From positions 124,001-188,000 of the forward strand of contig VIIQ02000006.1 in assembly GCA_007449985.2 (NCBI GenBank): a stretch of DNA of 64,000 nt. The letters run 5' to 3'. Position 1 is the first letter of the stretch. Each line of letters opens with the position of its first letter. The position numbers were made by a program, and so were the translations under genes. Positions 47,912-61,016 of this stretch are shown piece by piece. Source of the DNA: Desmodesmus armatus (taxonomy: Eukaryota > Chlorophyta > Chlorophyceae > Sphaeropleales > Scenedesmaceae). The notes below the pieces were generated by a model. That model was not told the origin of the DNA. It was given only the letters and a program-made list of their open reading frames with translations, and did not search any database.

Positions 47912-50065
47912 GCAGACAAGCGTGCTGCGCGCAACAAGATGGAGCGTGAGTTTGGGTGGCTGCTGGATCCTGTCACGCGGGGTGACTACCCAGAGGCCCT
48001 AAAGGTGACAGTACGGCATGGCTGGCATGAGCCCGAGCCACTTGATGGTGGCAAACTATCAGATCAGTACATGTATTAGACATCACACAGGGCATGTGTG
48101 GCAGCAGCGGGAGTGTGGGAGACTCTGTGTGTGATCATGTGTGTGTTTCTGATCTCTCTGCACAGGTGCCCATGGGTGAGGACCTGCCAGCCTTCACAGA
48201 GGCGGAGAAGGCAGACCTCAAGGGGTCCATCGACTTTATTGGCGTCAATGTCTACACTGCAAGGTGAGGCAGCAGCTGCGGCAAAGTCCTCCCGGTGGGC
48301 CCGCCACCACAAATAAGTCGCGCCTGAGCACAGCATTGATGAATGCTCCCTCTACAGTATGCACATGAGCACAGGCAGCTGGTGCAGCAAGTGTTGAGTA
48401 GGAGTGGCAGTCGGAGCTGTGGACGCTGCATTGATCAGTAGTAGCAGGACACAGACGTTGCGTGTCAGCGAATCCTCGCTGTACATTGACAGAACCACAG
48501 AACATTGCACACTGCACAAATCAAGCAATGCATTGTATGCTTCTGTGTGTGCGCCTGGTCAGGTATGTGTTTGCCAACCCAGACAAGCCATACGGTTTCA
48601 AGCAGACCACCATGCGGAACGGCAAGGTGATCGGCTTCCAGACCAATGAATGGTGAGTTTGGATTGGATCCACCCTGCCTCTGCATTGCATCATGCCTCT
48701 GCATTGCATCAGATGTTGGAGGAGAGGCATGTTACAAGTGGATGCTAGGCAGTACTCTCAGCTCCTGATGGACCAAGCATGCACATGCCTGATGCAGACC
48801 TGCAGCAAAACTTTGAGGGAAACAACAAACAACAAAACTGCCCCTTGGAAATGGTTATGATATGCCAGACATGTCTGCGCTGGCGACAGCGCATATGCTA
48901 TCTGCACGCAGCTTCCAGCACAGCCAACCATCCAGCCAGGCAATCTGGCGGTTGCTTTGAAAAAAGGGCTGCCACGTATTGAGTATGCTATTGGTGTGCG
49001 CAGGTTGTACGCTGCTCCTGGAGCGTTAGGTGGTGTGCTGGCGTATGTGGGCCTTAACTACAACAAGCTGGAGACATGGGTGACTGAGTTTGGCACCAAC
49101 ATGAAGGACGAGCAGCTGCTGGATGACGAGGCGGTGAGTAATCAGCACGGGACTGCTGCTGAGTGCTTGCTAGCACGTGCCACGTGGCAATGGCATTGAT
49201 TGTTGAGTTGAACATCTCCATGTGGCCCACTTGTGAATGCTGGTGGTCTTGCTTTGCAAGGCCTGCTGGCCCAGTGACTATCTCAGGAGGCATCCGCAAG
49301 CAGGCCTTGCGCAGCAAGTTCATCAGAGCTGGGGACTGGGTGCATCTGCTGCAGTTGTGTTGTACTGTTCGAGTATCCCTGTCGATGCCCCGTTGCAAGT
49401 TCGGCGTTGGCCCAGCCCAGCTCAGCATCTGTTGCCCGCCAGTAAGATCCCCGGGGCAGGATTACACGTCAGCAAGCAGGCGCTGCTACACCTGGGCTGC
49501 CATGTTGAATGCACCTGAACTGGTGTGCTTCAATGCTGGTGTTGGCTCTCTGCAGGCACTCCACGATCAGTACCGCATTCAGTTCTACCACGCCTACCTC
49601 AACAATGCCTGCCAAGCCATTGAGCGCTACGACCTCAATGTCAAGAAGATGTTTGCATGGACATTCCTGGACAACTTTGAGTGGTGCGCATTTGCTGAGC
49701 AGTGATGGGTCGGTGTTGCCTGTGCACCGAATGGCTTTCTTGTCTTTTTGCAGCAGTCCCTTCACTTATCTGCGTGCTGTCGATCTGACACTGGGCAGCT
49801 GCCACATGCACACGGCTTTCCTGTATGAGGCACACGCACAGTTGTCCATATTCTCTGTATACAGAGATAGCTCACGTACGTATTGCAAATGCTTGCTGCT
49901 GCTGCCACCGACCGTTGCTGTTGCCGCAGGGTGGAGGGATACGATGTGCCCTATGGCCTCATCCATGTGGACTTCAAGGGGGGCAGCTTGAAGCGCCGGC
50001 AGAAGGACTCAGCTGTCTGGTGGTCTGAGAACTTTTTCAAACAGCTGGTGTCGGAGCAGCAGTGA
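45188..50065 (+). CDS. Secreted glycoside hydrolase family 1 (beta-glucosidase-like)
   Basis: Thirteen exons: 45188-45409, 45525-45694, 45955-46088, 46433-46452, 46697-46792, 47015-47118, 47312-47448, 47916-48004, 48166-48263, 48563-48652, 49004-49133, 49556-49683, 49930-50065; 517 residues, the normal GH1 length. A signal peptide ([20 protein letters not shown]) precedes [20 protein letters not shown], the conserved GH1 start. Seen: YHWDLPQ (176-182), acid/base Glu223 in [12 protein letters not shown], substrate-pocket Tyr in [11 protein letters not shown], nucleophile Glu415 in WVTEFGTN, and the C-terminal [16 protein letters not shown] with VDF. The nucleophile motif is TEFG instead of the usual TENG. 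Intron 1 uses a GC donor (CAG|GCAAGT), and exon 4 is only 20 nt. Retaining hydrolysis of beta-glucosides or beta-galactosides outside the cell or in the vacuole is expected; the exact sugar cannot be read from the sequence. The start ATG at 45188 is preferred because it begins the signal peptide. Confidence 0.94.
46392..46417 (+). repeat. (CTG)8 microsatellite at a 3' splice site
   Basis: Eight CTG triplets end about 15 bases before the AG (46431-46432) that opens the 20-nt GH1 exon 4. It is preceded by a GTG run. Confidence 0.9.
46634..46668. repeat. CATGC pentanucleotide repeat
   Basis: Imperfect (CATGC)n in GH1 intron 4, about seven units. Confidence 0.8.
47875..47910 (+). repeat. (CTG)12 microsatellite at a 3' splice site
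   Basis: Twelve CTG triplets directly abut TGCAG, the acceptor of GH1 exon 8 at 47916. Confidence 0.95.
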
Positions 50066-50740
50066 TTTGTGCTGTTAGGGTGCAGTCACCCAGTGCATTG
50101 TTGGGAGGACAACATTTTTTCAACGTAATCCATGTTGCATATGATTTGCTGGCGGCTCAGCCGCCCAGCGAGTCAAATTCATGCATACAGGCAGGACTCT
50201 GACACAATGATGCAGTGTGTCCTGCCAGCAGAGATGAGCAATGCATGAAACCCGGGGACGCAATGATCTGGCTTGGTGCGTGGCAGTTTGCAGAGTGACT
50301 CAGACGGTGGTGCTGACGCAGCGCTTGGCAGGCGCATTGACGCTGATACACTGTAACACTTTACGGATCCAACGAGTGTGGTTTTATTGTGCAGTTCAAG
50401 GCACAGTAGGGTGGAACGTCTTGCGGGGTGAAACCTCCTTGGACCGCGACCGTTACTTTACCTGTGCGCATCTTCGACGCAACACTGAAGGCATTCAAAC
50501 CGTATGCAGCATTTCTTGTGAACAAGACGGTTTTGCTTGATCGGCTCTCAAGCAGTGGTCCTGCAGCATGCTGATGTGCAAACCTAGGCCGTGTGGGCTC
50601 TCGTGGCTCAGTGCAAACAGAGGTGCGTGCACAGCGCTGTACCTGCCTGAATGCAGGTGCACAGTAGACACTGCAAGGTGACAGCTACTCTCGCCAGCAG
50701 TTTCCATCTCCTGTGACTGATGCTGAGCCGTATCCGGCAG
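50066..50740. other. GH1 3' end and unresolved 5' part of the next gene
   Basis: After the GH1 poly(A) signal a plus-strand frame at 50409-50575 reads like coding sequence (TLPVRIFDATLKAFKPYAAF, then VNKTVLLDRLSS) although it has no ATG. It may be a 5' exon of the PAZ-OAS gene that follows, whose first supported exon also lacks a start codon. I could not link the two. Confidence 0.4.
50352..50356 (+). promoter_or_regulatory. Candidate TGTAA poly(A) signal for the GH1 gene
   Basis: TGTAA 287 bp after the stop codon, a typical distance for algal transcripts. Confidence 0.55.
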
Positions 50741-53700
50741 GTTTTGCCTGTCCAAGGGCAGTCAGGGCATGCGTGCACCGGCGCAGCGTGCTGCGGCGTT
50801 GTGTCACCCTCAAGGAAACAGAGGTGAAGCAGCCACTGCAGCAGCCACCACTAGGATGGCGCTTCCTGCTTGACGAGGTGGTTGATCAGATCATTGCCTA
50901 CGAGAGGGACAGAACTGGCAGAGAAGTTGATGAAGATGCAGCAAGGGACTTGCTGCAGCACTTGGCTGAGCACCTGGACTTGCTTGAACACTTGAACAGC
51001 AAGTTCAGGCAACGAAAGGTGAGTGAGTGAGGCAACAGTACAATGTGCGTGCATTGTCTCCTGCTGGCGGCCAGATCATCTTTTGCTTTTAAACAATGAC
51101 TGCTTCTGTGCTGCCTTGCTTTTTTGGGGGTGCACAGGGCATGCGGCTCTTGAGGGGGCCCAGCCCCATGATGTCAGCTGTCATACATCCAACCACCGAA
51201 CCCTGCGCTGTGTGGGTTGGTTCGTGCAGGAACCAACCCATCGATCTGCAGGCCTGCAGATTGATGTCATCTTTGGTAATCCCTCTGAATACAAACACAT
51301 GCCTGCCAAGCTCGGGTTTTCCTTCTTTGACTTTAGGTATGTACGGAAGTGAGAACAATCATTGCTGGCAGCATGTGCTGCAGGCAGGCGCGGTGACCAA
51401 CATGATTGGCAGGCTCGCTGGAGCACCTCCATACTCAACCACCCACTCACCGACTCTGACTGCATTGGTAGTGCCTCCAGTCAGTCTGCTTGTGGTATAC
51501 ACCTCCCCTGCAGGGGGGGCAGGCAACATCATCCACCCAAGTCACGATGACATGGCCAGTGGCGTGCCTTTCCAGAGCGCCAGACGCATCACATGTGCCC
51601 AAGCAGCTGCTGACGCAGGCTCTCAGCTACTGTTCCCTGGCTTGCCCTGCGTGGCTGTCTTCCAGCGCAAATGGGCTGATCCAAACAGCCCACAGTACAG
51701 ACCGGGCCCTGAAAATCACTACAAGACTTATCCGCTGGAGCTCTGCATGTGAGTGTGCAGGCCTACACAGCCGTTTCAAAGGCCAAAGGTGCATTTGAAA
51801 CTGCTGCTGTCATCAGCACGGCGACTCCCCTATAGGAGTGTGCTAGCTAGTAGGTAGCCAAAGCTGTTGATGCTGACACAGCCACAAAACACACTTGCGG
51901 CCCTACATGTGAACTACAATATGACAGCTGCAAGAGGACAACTTGAGAATTCAACAGCATATGTTGTTTGTGCCATCCTGGCACTTTGTTGTTTCTGCCT
52001 ATTTAGCTGCCAAATGCATGCCCACGGGAGGCACTGTGGTGGTAGCCCAGCGTAGCACCACCACGTGCCCCTTGGCAATCAAATCAGCTCCAACTGGGTC
52101 ATGCTCACTGATCTGCAGCATTCAACCCACTGACGGTATGTGCCTTGCTGTTTGTGTCATGCTTGCGCGCAGCTACAAACTGGACGGCAACCGATTGAAA
52201 GCCACTGGGGATGCTGACTGGCCTGATGTAGCACACAAGCTGGGCTCATTGGTGTCACCTGGCCAGCAGGTGCACATGCCTGAATGGCTGGTGGATTGGT
52301 GCCTAGAGCCAGGCGCAGCTAGCAGTGCCCATACCGCCACTCGTTGCCAGGTTGGCACAAGCACCAGCACCAGCAATAACTCCAGCACCAGCAACAGCAC
52401 CAGCAACAGCGCCAGCACAAGCAGTAGCTCTAGCGATAGCGGCACCGACAGCAATAGCAGCAGCAACAGCAACAGCTCTGACAGCAACCAAGCGAAGGCC
52501 CAGATTATTCAGGGGTTCAAAACATGGACTGACCGACTCATCCCCACCAAGGAGGAGAAGGCAGACCTGAAGGGCACCATGGAGGCAGTGGTTGCAGTGC
52601 TGCAGGACGCCTGCAAGAACCAGACCTGGACTGTGGAGGTCCAGCCTGTTGGCAGCTGCAGAAAGAAGACATCACTGCGAGGCTCGTAAGTGTGTCCATG
52701 TCTGTTGTAGCTAGGCACCTGGCTACAGGTACACCTATGGCTGTCGCTGGCCCAGCTGAGTCAGCACATCCCCCAGATTTCAAATCAGTGTGTTCCGAAA
52801 GGACTGATTTACATAGGGTACGCGTTTCGATGCTCTTCGCATCATCATCAGGCCACTGAATCAAGTCCAAACACACACAATCTAGCCATCATAAAGCCAA
52901 GCTCAGGGTACAAGGTTTCAGGGTGAGAGCACCAGCAAATTCTGCTCAGTGGCCGGACCCTATGTGTCTATTCAATCCAGGTATACCTATAGGTTTAACT
53001 ACGTAGTTGCCAATCAGTTTTGTAGCAGGCAGTTGCATATAGTGTGTGTTGTAGCTAGATTCTGTAGCTACAGGTACACCTATATAGCTATATATAGCTG
53101 CGGGGTGTTGCTTCTTAATCGGCTTGTACCTGGCTTGCTGTCAGGGAGTGGTGCAAGTCCATGTTTGCCTGTGCCTGAAAGTAGGGAGTGTAGGGAGTGT
53201 TGCGGTCCCTGCACGGTGCTGAGACCCAAACTCATAGCATGTCAATCAACTGAACTATCTGCTGGAACACTGCATGATGCCTGCCCTGCAAATCTGTGCA
53301 TGGCCCTGTCAACAGGAGAGAGCTTGACATCCAGGTGCAGCTGCACACGGAAGGCAACTTTGTGCAGGATCGGTCGGCCTGTCTGGGGCTCATTTGCCAC
53401 AGCCTCACGGCACAGTCTAGCAGCCAGCAGGATGCTGGAAACCAAGAAACAGACTTGTTGTCAGGTTGGGAGCGAAGGCGGCTAATTCCCCACTACCTGC
53501 ACCTCCACCACCGCCAGAAGCAAATCCACCTGGACGTTCAGGTCAGTCACCGGGCCGGAGTGTGGGCGCAGTGTGTACTACCTGGCAGGCGCGACTCAAC
53601 TGGCGCCTAGTGATCCTGCTGTGCAGCTGCACCATGCTGACTGTCCAACAGTGCGAGCGCAGCCATGGCAGCGGAATATATTCACATGCACCTTCATACA

Positions 53701-54742
53701 ACCTACATAAATGCACACCGGGGCATGAATAAACCCAACCTGCAGCCTGCAGGTGGACCATGGCATGGTCCAGCCAAACCTTTGAGCTGGGGTGCTGCAT
53801 CGCTAGGCTTGTACAGCGGCGTGGATCGTACTGTCCAAATCTCCAACTGAACGCTGCTATGCTGTATGTATGGCGTGATATCACACGGCACCGCAGGCTG
53901 CACCTGACTTGCGGCCGTACCTGCCTAATGCTGTCAATGGGCAGTGGCATAAAGCACTACTGGAGCTCATGCTGCAGCGAGCCCGTGACGACCCCAGCAC
54001 GATGTCACTGAGCAAGCAGCTTGACGCGTTCTCCGACCCATCCAAATCCAGCAGGGACCGCACGGCAGCACTGACCCCTATGCTGACAGACTGGCTGGCT
54101 GGTTTGCAGAGCAGGTTTCAGATGCAGTACGGGCAGCACGGTGCTACAGCCTTAGCCATTACTGTTGTCAGGGCGGTCAAGGCATGGGTGAAGTACGGCT
54201 TGGAGGAGCAGCTGAAGATTCCAACGACTGACAGCCACAATAAAGACAGCACAGCAGCCTCAATCCTGCCAGGGTACATTGTGGAGATACTTGTGGTGTA
54301 CATTCTTGAGAAGCGGCTGGCAGCAGGACAGCTGTATGCACACAGCCGGGTCGGGGAGCTTCAGTTGTTCATGGATGTCCTGCAGGAAATGTCACAGCTG
54401 CTGCGGCCCACAGCAGCAGACAGTGATCAGCCCACAAAGCCCATTGCTGTCTTCCACTTCTACACTGAGGCCCAGTGTGAGCAGTTTAGGGGCTGCTGGG
54501 GTGAGATGTACTGCTACACCCCCTACATCATTCACCCGGCCGACCCAAGCTACAACTGCACGACAGGTTTTGAGCGTTGGGAGGCGCTAGCAGACGCAGC
54601 AGGGGAGCTGCACCAGCAGTTGCAGCAGCTGACGCAGCAGCAGGGGGATGGGTATGCCTGGGAGGGTGTACTTGAGGGCACTTCCTTAGGGCGAGCTGTG
54701 AAGGCTTTGAGAAAGCAGCAGACAGCTGCTGCAGCTCAGTGA
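50741..54742 (+). CDS. PAZ-OAS fusion protein A (5' end unresolved)
   Basis: Supported exons: 50741-51018, 51230-51336, 51485-51748, 52173-52685, 53316-53541, 53897-54742. Exon 1 has no ATG, so at least one 5' exon is missing. Exons 2-3 encode a PAZ-like domain: GLQIDVIFGNPSEYKHMPAK, then ITCAQAAADAG...FPGLPCVAVFQ and HYKTYPLELC, in the order of the Argonaute PAZ segments (GLKVEV..., VAQYF...YP.LPCLQVG, YLPLEVC). A Ser/Asn/Thr-rich linker follows (52357-52488). The nucleotidyltransferase starts on exon 4: VQPVGSCRKKTSLRGS, continued by RELDIQVQL (exon 5), a third Asp in QIHLDVQ, then an OAS-C-like region with TVVRAVKAWVKYGL, LPGYIVEILVVYILE and IIHPADPSYN. OAS enzymes join ATP into 2'-5' oligomers when bound to dsRNA. 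Here the first acidic residue is Glu, conservative for metal binding. The acceptor of exon 3 is ambiguous (51485 keeps the frame; the stronger AG at 51513 does not). Confidence 0.82.
52703..53091. repeat. Possible small mobile-element remnant in an intron
   Basis: The intron 52686-53315 contains two similar segments about 345 bp apart (52703-52739 and 53046-53091) sharing GTTGTAGCTAG and CTACAGGTACACCTAT. Between them the base composition is more AT-rich than in nearby introns, and there are short hairpins (AAATCAGT...ACTGATTT at 52782-52810, GATGC...GCATC near 52829). No coding sequence. The outline resembles a MITE-like or solo-repeat insertion, but terminal inverted repeats and a target duplication are not clear. 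Confidence 0.4.
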
Positions 54743-55775
54743 GGTCTGCGACGCTCTGTGCAGGTTGCTGTTGCGCGGTTGGCATCAATTGCGTCACAAC
54801 TTGTGCTGCGGCAGCTGGAACAAACAGCCTGTTGTTGTCTGTGGGTGACATGTCGAGGCGGCACTACGTTATTCAGCCTGAGATGGTGTGATGGTGTAAG
54901 ATCTGCTTGCTGATGGTGTATGGTTGCTTGGTGAAAGCCTAAAGCCTACTATTGACTAGCGGTTGTCAAGTACATATGCAACTCCTTGTGACTTGTTGCT
55001 GCACATGTGTGCAGCCTGAGTGTGATGGTAATTGCCAGCATGTGAACCAAGCAAGTCAAGAACTGGGGCTTCCATACAGCATCATCAGAATCAACGTGTT
55101 TGCTGTACAGCACACCAGAAGATTCCAGTCATATGGTAGCAGTACATTGGGCAGTACAAAGGCAGAGCACACATGCAAAACATTGATCGTCTGGGGGCCA
55201 TGACACCAGACTCCGAGTTGAGTGGTTTGAACATCAAATGCCAGAGCAACTGTTGGAGTACCACTGCCAATCTCACAGGAGGAGGTCGGGCGCACTTGCA
55301 CCACCAGTTTCTTTTGCCACACGATGTTGCATTTGTAGCATCGTCACTGGGGGAAGAAGCTGTCCTAGCAAAAGCCTGGCCGAACAGCATGTAGGGGACA
55401 TAATCACTGGTGCAGCTGCCTGCAAGTACAAGCTGACACTACACAAAGCAGGCTGCCTTGATCATGAGGCAACCAACAAGTCATGGCCAAGGTGCATGCA
55501 ACGCACACCCACCACTCCGCTAGTCATTTTTGCCAGCAGGACCTCTGACCACTTGGCAGTAGCGCCAAGAAAAAAATGCCAACTGATGACCCGCCTGGCA
55601 GTGCCTCAAACCAGTCTGCCCTAGATGCAGTTCGACCAAACCCTGAACAATGGCCTGACGACCACCAACAATTGCTAGCCTAGCCTTGCCCGGCCTGACA
55701 TAGCCCAACCTGACGCAGCCTAGCCCAGCCTATCCTATCCTAGCAGGTGGGCTCAGTTGAACGCATGCTACCCTG
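54743..55775. other. Tail-to-tail intergenic region between the PAZ-OAS paralogues
   Basis: 1.03 kb holding both 3' UTRs. A degenerate array of short units (variants of TAGCCCAGCCTA) lies at 55672-55745. I found no minus-strand TGTAA for the second gene. No further gene. Confidence 0.55.
54895..54899 (+). promoter_or_regulatory. Candidate TGTAA poly(A) signal for PAZ-OAS A
   Basis: TGTAA 153 bp after the stop codon. Confidence 0.5.
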
Positions 55776-58700
55776 CTATAGCTGGTTGGCATCCGGAGTG
55801 AAAGCAGCCACTGCTAGTCCCAGGGAGCTCCCACTCAGCAGCTGCTGCCACACCTGCTCCCCGCCCCCAACCTGAGGACTCCCCACATGCTGGCCGGCGG
55901 CTGCGCCAGCCGCCGCCGCAGCCGCCGCTGCTGCTGTGTCACTGCTGCCACCCATGGCCTGAATCATCTGCCCATATAGCTCCCCCGCTGCGTCTGTAAC
56001 AGCAGCCCAGCCCTTGAAGGGACTGTTCTCTGTGCAGTTGTAGCTAGGGTCAACAGGGCTGATGATGTAAGGTGTGCACAGCAGCCCTGGAGGGCCCCAC
56101 AACCCCCTGAACAACTCACACTGCTCCCGTGTGTACAGGCTATACACTGCGATGGGGTCTGCAGTGGAGCCTGGTGCAGCAGGGCGCAGGAGCTGCGATG
56201 CTGCATGCAGGACATCTAGGAAGAGGTACAGGGTCCTGGTCTGCGTGGGGTACAGCTCTGAGGGTGGTGTGCCTTCCGAGGCAGCTTGCTGCAGCTTGCT
56301 GTGCAGGACGTGCAGCACAAACACCTCCCACATGTAGCCGGGAGGCTGCTTGGTGAAGTCGTGGGACTGATCCCCTGCAGGTCGCACCCACATCTGCGCT
56401 GCTGGAGAGCTCCTGGGCACCCCTGACACCCCTGGCGCTGCTGCTGCTGATGCCCCTGCTGTTGCGTCCACGCCATCTGGCACACTGCTGGTCAAGGCGT
56501 GAGGCAGCCCAAACTTTGACCACGCCTTGACTGCCCGTATCACATCTGTCACCATGCTGTCAGTGTCATACCCGTACATCCTGCTGCACTGCTGGGGTAC
56601 ACCCTTGATGATATCTGTCATAAGGGGTGTCAGCAAGACTGTCCTGAGCTTGTTAGGTTCTGAAGGGCAGGTGAAGAAGTCTGTAGTGCTGCTGCTGGTG
56701 GTGGTGGCAGCAGCAGCGCCACTGGGTGAGGCTGGTGGAGAGGGCAGCTGTCCTGCAGCGTGCTGTGCGCGTTGAATCATGTGCTGCAGGAGCTGCCTGC
56801 GGGGCTCACCATGGCAGCTGTCAAAGGCCTTGGGGGACTGGCACACCTGCAGTGCAGCCGCCATAAAGAGTGAGACAATTGTATCAATTTTAAGAAGGAA
56901 AACCCAGAGCTTGAGAGCTCGGTTGAACATTGGCCATCAAGGGATGCCCATGGGGCAGGCAAACGCATTCCTGAAGGTAACAGCAGCCACCGCAGATCTA
57001 GAGGAGCAGGCCACTTCCATGAGCAATTGCAACAGCCTGCTGCCACTGACCAGAAAGACTCCAGCCAACCACAAATGCTACAGCAGAAGCACCCACCCAC
57101 CTGCACATCCAACTGCAGCTTGAGCACTGGGTGGTACAGCCGCAGCCAGTGGGGCCAGTGGGAGTCCAGCTGCCAGCCACACTCCACCACAGAGCCACCA
57201 CCACCACCACCACCACCAGCTGCAGGCCCAGTGCCTGATGGGCCTTGACACAAGACTGTGCAGATGGCGTTGAGGCAGTCAGTCCTGCAGGCCTTGAAGT
57301 GGCCTCGTGAGGCAGTGTCCACATTGAGCTCCACCAATAGGTCCAAGTCATGCCTGGTCAGCACAAACAATATGCATGCAGCAGCACAGGAAGAGGTTTA
57401 CAAAGGCCACAGTGTGCGTACGCGCGTTCCAGGGGAATCCGTGAGGCAATCACGCTGCTGAAGCCCACGATAAGATGGCTGGTTGCATGGCTTGACAGAA
57501 GAAGGGGGCTGCTCTCCTGCCGCTAGCCTCAGGATGAGCTAGCTGAAAGAATGCCTCCGTCTGCCTAGTAGCCCTCACCACCCCCCCCCCTTGCCCCCAA
57601 ACAGGGGAGCAGATGAAGAAGGCTGCTGAGGAGGTGGGGCGTGCTGTGCTGTGACACCAACAGTCAAAAAACGTAATGTACTACATGGCCTGAGCACCTC
57701 AGGTGCTCATGCATCCTGGCTCACACATCAAGGTCTTGCTACTGAAGTCAATCGACGTCACTGTTATTGCACCTTACACCGCCATTTGAATTCTGCACCA
57801 GCTGGACGTGTGTGCAATGCAGCATGTAGGGCTGGCATGGTGCATGGAGAAGCTGAGTGACTAAAGAACTTCAGCACTCCAGAGGACTCCTCTCTCGAGG
57901 AAGCCTGTTGTGACACTCACGATCCTCTGAGGGATGTCGCCCTGATGTAGCTGCCCACAGGCCGCACTGCAGCAACCGTCCACAGCTGGCTCCTGGCCCG
58001 CTCCACCAGCACCTGCCGCACTGCCTCCACCGTTGCCGGCATCACCTCATTCTCTGACTTGGTGGGGTACAGCCGGCTGACCCAGGAGTGAAACTGGCTG
58101 TTGATGGTGTAGAATGCTGGCCCCTGCAAGCCCCGGTGGTTTGCCGCAAAGGCAGCTGGTGCAGGGGTCAGGGATGAGGTGTAGGCAGGGTGTTTGCTGT
58201 CTGTATCGCCAGCTCCATGGCTGCTGCAGCTGCTGTTGCTGTCACTGGGGGATGCGTCTGAAGGCAGGAGCTGCAGGGCTGAGGGCTGCTGCCTGTGCTG
58301 TGGGCTGCTTCCTGTTCGGAGAACAGCCGAGGGTGCTGAACCTGCCAGATGCCCTGGGGCCATTGGACTGCCAGTGCTGTTCACGCCTGCTCGTGTGCCT
58401 GTGGCTGCTGGTGCCCTTGTTTCTGCTCCTGTCACTGCTGCCGTTCCTGCAGACTGTACAGCATGCACCAGGGACGGCTCAGACCTGCCAGGCCCGGCAG
58501 GCTGCTGCTCTTCTCCTGGGTGTGCAGCTGCAGTTGGCTGCGACCCTGCAGGCGCTGTGCCAGCACCTGCTGCTGGGGCTTCCTGCTCGATGACTGCAGG
58601 GGATGCATCTGCTGAGGATGGCTGTTGTGGAGCTGCTGGCATCACAGGAGCAGGCTGTGAACCTGCAGGACTGCTGACCTCCCCCTCAGCACCCGCTGCT

Positions 58701-61016
58701 GTGCTTGCACCTGCTGCCCCAACCATGCTCCCGGAGTGACTGATAGTGGCAGCCTCAACCCCATGGGGGCCAGCTGCTACTGCAGACCCCACCCCAGCCC
58801 CAGCAGCAGGTGTTACATCTGCGGCAGCTGCCTTCTGCTGCTGTTCAAACAGGGCAGCAACCCAAGGAGGCATCCTACCCCGCTGTACACCTCCCATGGT
58901 ATCAGGCACGTCACACAGGTCCCAGTCCCCATCCCCCGCTGGTTTGCGGGCACCACCTGGCACACTGACATCAATCCTGCAGGCCAGCAGCACAGGGTAT
59001 AGTCAGCTTCAAGCAAGCTGTTGTTCCTTGGACTCCCACCGGCTGGCCGCACACAGCACAATCAGGCAAACCCAACTGCCGGGAGCCCAAGGCAAAGCCT
59101 CACCAGTGAGATACGCCCAACACTAGGCAGCTGGTTGTCCAATCTAGGAGTGGCGTAACAGTGACAGCGAGCCAGACGAAAGCTTAAGACATGCAAATTG
59201 AACTGATGGATGATCATCCATATCATGAGATACAAGCCTGCATGCTGCATCATACTCACAGCACAGTCTCCACCGGGAAGCTCTTGTAGCGCCTGCTGCC
59301 CTGCTGCTCCTCCTTGACCAGCCTGTTGTCCAGGACCTCCACGCATGGCAGTTCCGGGTGACGCAGTGTGTGGCCCAAGTGTGCCAGGTACTGCGCACAG
59401 GTGGTGTCTGCTCCTGGGTTGAACGGGTCACTGTGGATGATGTCACAAGGGCAACTGCAAGTACAGGACATGCCATGTCCCCAGTGGGGTCAGCAGCAGC
59501 CTGATATCGGCGGCAATGCTAGTATTGGACCACTGGCAGTTGCGCACTCAACTTTGTTGAACAAATTGCAGACAAAGGACGTCTAAGGAGGGCTTTGTAC
59601 GGCCATAAAGGTGGGGATCATCCAGGGTCAGCACCTCCATGAAGTACACTCAACAGACCTGTCATAGTGAACTGCCTTGACCCATGCATTGAGTTTGTGT
59701 ACATCAGGCCTGATGGTACCTAGGTAGCAGCCACCGATGTGATGACAGCCCAAGGTGGTGGCACTGTGGGCTGATCACCAGATGGACTAGGCAAGTCCGA
59801 GTGTCTAGCTAGTAGCAGCGCTGCTAGTCACATTCAGACTTTGGGCTTGGACAGCCCCACAAGGCTGTGCAATGTTGTGGCACTTTCACAACTTAGCAGG
59901 CGCTGCTGGGGGGCATGAAAGCCTGGTACATACCTGATCCCCAGGTGTGAGATGCCATGCCTCTGGTCCCGTGCCTTCAATCCATCCAGCTGGGTGCGCA
60001 CCTGTGCACACCCGTGCAACAACAAGCCAGCAGCAGGATTCCAGGTTGCGGTCAGTGAGGGTATGTATGTAAACACTGAGTTAAAACGCATGTGTACAAC
60101 AAGTACAACATGATGAAGCGGTCTTGTGAAAGGTGAAATCCTAATGCAGTCCTGTACCATGAAGCCTTACGTAAGGTAGTACACTTGTTGCAAATCTCAA
60201 TTTGGTTCAGTACGGTACCAAACCATGCCTCGCAATGCGCAGGATGTGTGTGGCTTCTGAGGAAGTTTTTCAGGGATGCAGCTGTCTGTGGTCCTTGCCA
60301 TTGCAGACTCCACTCACCTTCTTGTGCCTCAGCACATCATTGAGGAAGATGTAGATGTTGGGGTAACACACCAGGTTGCGCACAGCCAGCACTTCCAAGG
60401 CCTCCTCCTTTGAAGGTGCTCCACAACATCTCACCAGAAGCTGCGCAACATGATCCAGCAGAGGCACCCACTCTGCTGCTGACCCCCCTGGGCTTGGTGA
60501 GGGGCTGGGGCTGCTGCGTGCTGCTGCGGGTGACAGCTGTAGCTGGGGTGTGGGGGAGGCAGCCGCTGATGCTGTAGGAACATCAGGAGGCTCTCTGCTG
60601 CCGCGAGGGCCTGGTGTGCTGGATGATGGCATGACTGTTTCTGTGTCCATGCCTGCCACTGAGGTCACCAGTGTGGATAGATCAGCTGGTTGTGAGCTCG
60701 CTGCTGCTGCTGCTGCTGCATGTGCTCCTGGCACCATGGCAAGGTACTGCTGTGCTGCCGGAAGGTGGTGACTCGCAGGCGCAGTGCTGCCAGGGGCAAG
60801 CTGCTGCTGCCTGTCTGCCTGCGCCTCATTGCACCCTGGCCTAGTGCTGCCCCCAACATCACCTTCTGGCAGCACCGGTGCATCGATGGCAGGGGCGTGG
60901 TTGACTGTGATGGGAGCCCTAGCGCATTGCTGCTGGGCCAACAGCTCCTGCAGCAGAGACTGTGCTGCTGCGTTGAGTGTCCCTCCCTTCTTCATGCGCT
61001 TGGTCGGTAAACTCAT
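55776..61016 (-). CDS. PAZ-OAS fusion protein B, complete
   Basis: Six exons with matching phases (61016-60318, 60001-59934, 59454-59260, 58976-57921, 57353-57101, 56846-55776) give 1,113 residues. 1-180: disordered. 182-233: WVPLLDHVAQLLVRCC... then IYIFLNDVLRHKK, placed like the strand before PAZ. 234-321: PAZ-like, with LDGLKARDQRHGISHLGIS, TTCAQYLAHLGHTLRHPELP-CVEVL (273-297) and YKSFPVET. 322-600: Ala/Pro/Ser-rich linker. About 610-757: OAS-type nucleotidyltransferase core with PVGSYIRATSLRGS (660-673), DLD (675-677) and Asp755. 758-1113: OAS-C-like helical domain with VIRAVKAWSKFGL, PPGYMWEVFVLHVLH and YIISPVDPSYN (Asp1023-Pro1024). All three acidic residues are present, so catalysis is plausible. 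A run of eight Gly sits inside the core. Start: ATG at 61016, the first in the open frame (MSLPTKRMKK). The role is inference: a sensor of RNA ends or small-RNA duplexes that makes an oligonucleotide, or an RNA 3'-tailing enzyme. Confidence 0.87.

Follow-up and report, generated by a model that had tools for sequence, protein, structure and literature searches.

Argonaute proteins hold the 3' end of the guide RNA in their PAZ domain, and oligoadenylate synthetases (OAS) make 2'-5' oligoadenylate on double-stranded RNA. In antiviral defence, RNA interference is regarded as one branch and immunity through nucleotide second messengers as another, and a gene family with an OAS core fused to an Argonaute PAZ would allow a connection between the two to be tested. 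Here, two neighbouring genes with this predicted arrangement, A and B, are described from a window of 64,000 nucleotides of the green alga Desmodesmus armatus (assembly GCA_007449985.2, contig VIIQ02000006.1, positions 124,001 to 188,000), together with their relatives in the same genome and in public protein data. OAS-like genes are reported from 8 of 12 supergroups, and the OAS superfamily is regarded as old and as widely distributed among eukaryotes (PMC10732462). The word "PAZ" does not occur in the main text of that survey of eukaryotic CD-NTases, so that the superfamily would gain an architecture not mentioned there. In agreement with the first-pass annotation of this DNA, which knew of no protein joining the two domains, no published description of a PAZ-OAS fusion was found in the open-access literature among the matches listed, as judged from listings and the starts of abstracts.

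Predicted PAZ-OAS Genes in the Desmodesmus Genome

Genes A and B lie tail to tail, A on the forward and B on the reverse strand, with their stop codons 1033 bases apart. With the predicted splicing, gene B extends from 61016 to 55776 (-) in six exons that form one frame of 1113 residues, while gene A, likewise of six exons, extends from 50719 or further upstream to 54742 (+) and encodes at least 732 residues. The gene models were built from sequence alone, with GT-AG splice sites picked by eye; each gene has five introns, and all ten follow the GT-AG rule, with phases 0, 2, 2, 2, 0 in both A and B. Once the genes were spliced in this way, the peptides quoted by the first-pass annotation for a PAZ-like part followed by an OAS-like part in each gene were all in frame. 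Aligned with each other, A and B are identical at 165 of 498 columns of the OAS part (pairwise E 2e-64); the PAZ part aligned as a segment of its own, with 57 of 204 columns identical (55.1 bits, E 1e-11).

A six-frame search of the genome (115.8 Mb in 831 contigs) with the last exon of gene B as query revealed three further loci, on contigs C548, C71 and C230, where a PAZ-like exon and OAS exons occur on one strand in the same order, giving a total of at least five PAZ-OAS genes (A, B, L009, L010 and L011). The recurrence of the same order of parts at three additional loci shows that the arrangement of A and B is beyond chance. The five genes are 37-60% identical to L010, and most members carry a low-complexity linker between the PAZ and OAS parts. 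The first PAZ exon was located in four of the five, the exception being L011, in whose predicted gene model two additional introns interrupt the OAS part.

The public protein set contained seven relatives. Over the aligned parts, P0003 was 75.5% identical to B, P0006 58% to A and P0002 71% to L010; since each of these is close to a particular paralogue, the paralogues look older than the species. The sole named relative in the protein search, P0007, is an annotated protein of Scenedesmus sp. NREL 46B-D3, a chlorophyte of the Scenedesmaceae, with a PAZ-type segment at its start and an OAS C-terminal domain at its end. On its domain content, P0007 is an independent gene call of the PAZ-OAS fusion, in a model from which some of the catalytic core and some of the helical domain are missing, and it provides the same domain order in another chlorophyte, as sought by the first-pass annotation.

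The PAZ Domain and Its Introns

The identity of the N-terminal part was assessed with hhalign. Seven Argonaute PAZ segments, four of them taken from PDB and three from the Desmodesmus genome, were made into one profile and six PAZ-OAS segments (the five genes and P0007) into the other. The two profiles aligned colinearly over 81 columns with a probability of 95.5% (E 1.4e-8, score 50.8), and the controls scored at most 20.6 for 200 column shuffles, 8.6 for the reversed alignment and 17.5 for an OAS alignment. The score was 35.6 (82.9%, 38 columns) when only the four PDB Argonautes were used; with reduced PAZ-OAS sets it was 48.2 without P0007, 46.7 for A and B alone (31 columns), 31.1 for L009, L010 and L011 alone, and 23.0 for P0007 alone. 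A search of 177,635 PDB sequences with the five-gene PAZ profile (E<=10) gave only three matches, all to Argonaute PAZ and all weak (E 0.3 to 0.59). An L.C and P.E core is invariant in the PAZ of the five paralogues and P0007. Judged by these profiles, the PAZ of the PAZ-OAS genes is real but diverged.

Two tyrosines, which we take to serve in the pocket for the RNA 3' end, are both kept in three Argonautes of this genome (L012, L013 and L014). In the alignment of the five PAZ-OAS genes, the first was kept in B alone, and also in P0007, and the second in none of the five.

The introns provide a second line of evidence. In L012 and L014, two Argonaute loci, the K and V of KG[LA]K/VQV are separated by a phase-0 intron (marked by the slash), and a phase-2 intron lies in the codon directly after the C of [LM]ELC. 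In the PAZ-OAS genes, a phase-0 intron is found at LK/V (KK/VRT in B, RK/EPT in A), and a phase-2 intron directly follows VECC, VEAC, LECC, LELC or VETV. The sites were paired with those of Argonaute by an intron-blind profile alignment for L010 and by the merged alignment for the rest, and both are common to the PAZ-OAS genes and two of the four Argonaute loci of this genome (L012 and L014). The third locus, L013, shares the phase-2 site and lacks the phase-0 one, which precedes the V of the first PAZ strand; in the fourth, on contig C666, only the acceptor side of the phase-0 site was seen and the phase-2 site is absent. The intron between PAZ-OAS exons 2 and 3 had no counterpart in the Argonaute loci of this genome, C666 having one some residues off. 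In our judgement, two matching intron positions within about 90 codons are unlikely to arise by chance. Because the flanking introns agree in place and phase, the comparison suggests that the PAZ exons derive from an Argonaute gene by exon shuffling. The PAZ assignment of the first-pass annotation is thus backed by both the profile comparison and the shared introns.

A genome search with PF02171 (Piwi; E<=0.1) gave 10 matches, all on contigs C329, C545 and C666; the contigs that carry the five PAZ-OAS genes had no match. These matches resemble four Argonaute loci, of which C329 carries two. The PAZ of the C666 Argonaute has mostly different intron positions and was not picked up by the Pfam PAZ search.

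The OAS-Type Enzyme Half

The profile of the OAS part was compared with PDB at E<=10, and the 14 matches were led by six OAS or OASL structures (E 6.2e-6 to 0.0045), followed by five bacterial CD-NTases (0.027 to 0.99) and three ribosomal L32 proteins (1.3 to 1.7). No CCA enzyme, poly(A) polymerase or terminal uridylyltransferase (TUTase) was among them. Pfam matches across the five genes were SMODS in four, NTP_transf_2 in four and OAS1_C (PF10421) in two. PF10421 exceeded its cut-off in A and L011 and not in B, L009 and L010, which share the motif by alignment. These searches bear out the OAS core and C-terminal domain assigned by the first-pass annotation; of the Pfam families it had named, NTP_transf_2 and OAS1_C were recovered and PAZ was recognised in none of the five genes.

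The elements G-S, TSLR, LD, a third D, R..KAW, PGY..E and P.DP..N are invariant in all five genes. The third D was paired with its OAS residue by eye (the alignment printed by HMMER was two columns off). The catalytic D.D is present in B, L009, L010 and L011, and gene A has E.D, in accordance with the ELD and DLD that had already been read for A and B, respectively.

A further gene of OAS1_C type (VVLDPADPTNNV) was observed at C159:131744-131803 and around (L015). A D.D pair beside its GS motif was not seen by eye, and contig C159 was without matches when the genome was searched with Pfam PAZ.

Exon Structure of Genes A and B

In gene B, all on the reverse strand, exon 1 (60318..61016) contains the start codon, a low-complexity N-terminus and the first PAZ-region helices (EWVPLLDH...VLRHKK), and ends at the phase-0 intron; homologues of this exon are present in A, L009 and L010. 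Exon 2 (59934..60001) continues the PAZ with VRTQLDGLKARDQRHGISHLGI and has counterpart exons in L009, L010 and L011. Exon 3 (59260..59454) encodes the PAZ core (TTCAQYLAH...HPELPCVEV...YKSFPVETV), which aligns to Argonaute PAZ by hhalign, and ends at the phase-2 intron. A conserved W...RMPxWV motif, a long low-complexity linker and the start of the nucleotidyltransferase core up to VGSYIRATSLRGS, matched by Pfam SMODS and NTP_transf_2, follow in exon 4 (57921..58976). Exon 5 (57101..57353) carries the catalytic HDLDLLVEL and the third acidic residue (LQLDVQ), and exon 6 (55776..56846) an OAS C-terminal-like helical domain that ends in PYIISPVDPSYN...W and the stop codon; the predicted model of this domain had a predicted template modelling score (pTM) of 0.70.

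The exons of gene A, on the forward strand, follow the same plan. Exon 1 (50719..51018) encodes the first PAZ-region helices GWRFLLDEV...FRQRK; no in-frame ATG was found in this first located exon, and its 5' limit is therefore uncertain. Exon 2 (51230..51336) contains GLQIDVIFGNPSEYK...FFDF of the PAZ, and exon 3 (51542..51748) the PAZ core, RITCAQAAADAGSQLLFPGLPCVAVF...YKTYPLELC, also aligned to Argonaute PAZ by hhalign; its acceptor at 51542 was picked for frame and similarity to B, and alternative acceptors are possible. Exon 4 (52173..52685) comprises a DADWP...HMPEWLV motif, a Ser-rich linker and the start of the nucleotidyltransferase core up to VGSCRKKTSLRGS; exon 5 (53316..53541) contains RELDIQVQL, in which E replaces the first catalytic D, and IHLDVQ; and exon 6 (53897..54742) encodes a domain of OAS1_C type (PF10421, 20.2 bits against a cut-off of 19.9) with PYIIHPADPSYN...W and the stop codon.

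A P-x-W-[VLI] motif was observed after the PAZ in all five genes (RMPPWV, HMPEWL, RMPVWV, RMPSWV and QAPPWL; in gene B at 58859-58936, reverse strand) and as QVPPWI in P0007. Directly upstream of gene A (49163-50065, +), frames were noted by eye that resemble the end portion of a glycosyl hydrolase of family 1 (beta-glucosidase).

Proposed Function and Alternative Explanations

We propose, with moderate confidence, that the PAZ-OAS protein is an RNA-triggered nucleotidyltransferase with a putative activity that would make an oligoadenylate-type signal. The protein would dock through its PAZ, either to RNA or to the RNA-silencing machinery, docking would switch on the OAS core in the members with catalytic residues (B, L009, L010 and L011), and the activated core would polymerise ATP into a small nucleotide signal. 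Gene A, where E replaces the D of the first metal-binding position, may encode a weakly active or a regulatory member. A wider proposal is that exon shuffling joined an Argonaute PAZ to an OAS and thereby gave rise to a green-algal sensor that detects silencing complexes or the ends of small RNAs and signals through a nucleotide second messenger, which would directly link RNA interference to OAS-type immunity; taken as a whole, this is tentative and rather improbable.

Several results weigh against a signal-making enzyme triggered through its PAZ. Pfam PAZ (PF02170) matched none of the five members scanned singly, and its search of the genome gave three places, the five PAZ-OAS loci not among them. 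The loss of most of the pocket tyrosines speaks against RNA 3'-end sensing, and RNA-end binding should therefore not be assumed; the first-pass annotation had suggested an RNA-end sensor with a nucleotide signal as its product, or a small-RNA tailing enzyme, with a putative role in algal antiviral or transposon defence. Confidence (pLDDT) was 41 in the AlphaFold model of P0007, and Foldseek with the model of the C-terminal domain gave nothing significant. Searched alone against PDB, the gene A segment retrieved one unrelated match and no OAS, and the L011 segment retrieved OAS at E 0.025 to 0.24. The NCBIfam model cca_archaeal matched the nucleotidyltransferase core in all five genes, with a best value of 4.9e-9 and over no more than the initial part of the core; since the models of NCBIfam are bacterial and archaeal, it probably lacks one for OAS. 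Weak matches to MTPAP-like and DZF_N models occurred in two genes each (best 0.014 and 0.053). A search of the genome with PF06479, the RNase L/Ire1-type nuclease, gave one match at E<=0.1 (C63:75436-75690), and a 2'-5' oligoadenylate receptor of the RNase L kind is thus not evident.

The CCA-adding match, found in every member, favours a serious rival, namely an RNA-tailing enzyme whose PAZ would grip small RNAs or RNA cleavage products by the 3' end while the nucleotidyltransferase extends that end, like MUT68, HESO1 and URT1, which have other architectures. PAZ domains do hold RNA 3' ends. MUT68 of Chlamydomonas is active in small-RNA decay, as described in a source that also covers the tailing enzymes of plants (PMC13030794). 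Tailing nevertheless appears unlikely: OAS leads the PDB profile matches, the C-terminal domains of A and L011 exceed the OAS1_C cut-off, and the pocket that would hold the RNA end has mostly lost its residues. PDB contains CCA-enzyme, poly(A)-polymerase and TUTase structures, none of which was among those matches.

The same pocket residues, of which the first tyrosine remains only in B and the second in no gene, are consistent with a PAZ that no longer binds RNA and now serves as a protein-contact or structural module, so that the OAS part would answer double-stranded RNA or another ligand alone. Among the paralogues, divergence is also greater in the PAZ-side segments, where mean column identity is 48%, compared with 56% in the OAS segments. 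The domain is nevertheless retained in five paralogues and P0007 with its core unchanged, and we consider this explanation, too, doubtful. That PAZ and OAS exons belong to two adjacent genes wrongly joined is very improbable: the parts do meet across an intron, between exons 3 and 4, in models predicted from the DNA, but their order, strand and joining phase are alike at five loci, and the annotated Scenedesmus protein contains both parts. In our ranking, the signal-making enzyme comes first, with tailing and a non-RNA-binding PAZ next.

Comparison With Known Systems

With the OAS of eukaryotes (CD-NTases with PF10421), the PAZ-OAS genes share the palm core GS...LR...D.D, the third Asp and a helical C-terminal domain with R..K, P.Y..E and P.DP..N; they differ by the added N-terminal PAZ and low-complexity linkers, and have PGY where OAS1 has PPQY. 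With the Argonaute PAZ (PF02170) they share the colinear 81-column profile match, the L.C and P.E core and, for two of the four Argonaute loci of this genome, the two intron sites, whereas the pocket aromatics are mostly lost, there is an insert before the last strand, and the Pfam model does not recognise the domain. Archaeal CCA-adding enzymes and those of MUT68/HESO1 type belong to the same nucleotidyltransferase superfamily as the PAZ-OAS core. The archaeal CCA-adding model matches over the first part of this core, but the C-terminal domain matches OAS1_C in two members, and structures of these enzymes are absent from the PDB profile matches. Finally, the CD-NTases of bacterial cyclic oligonucleotide-based antiphage signalling systems (CBASS) have in common with the PAZ-OAS genes the SMODS matches in four of five members, CdnE-type and CdnG structures being among the weaker PDB matches; their scores are below those of OAS, and the PAZ-OAS genes are intron-bearing algal genes with a fused PAZ.

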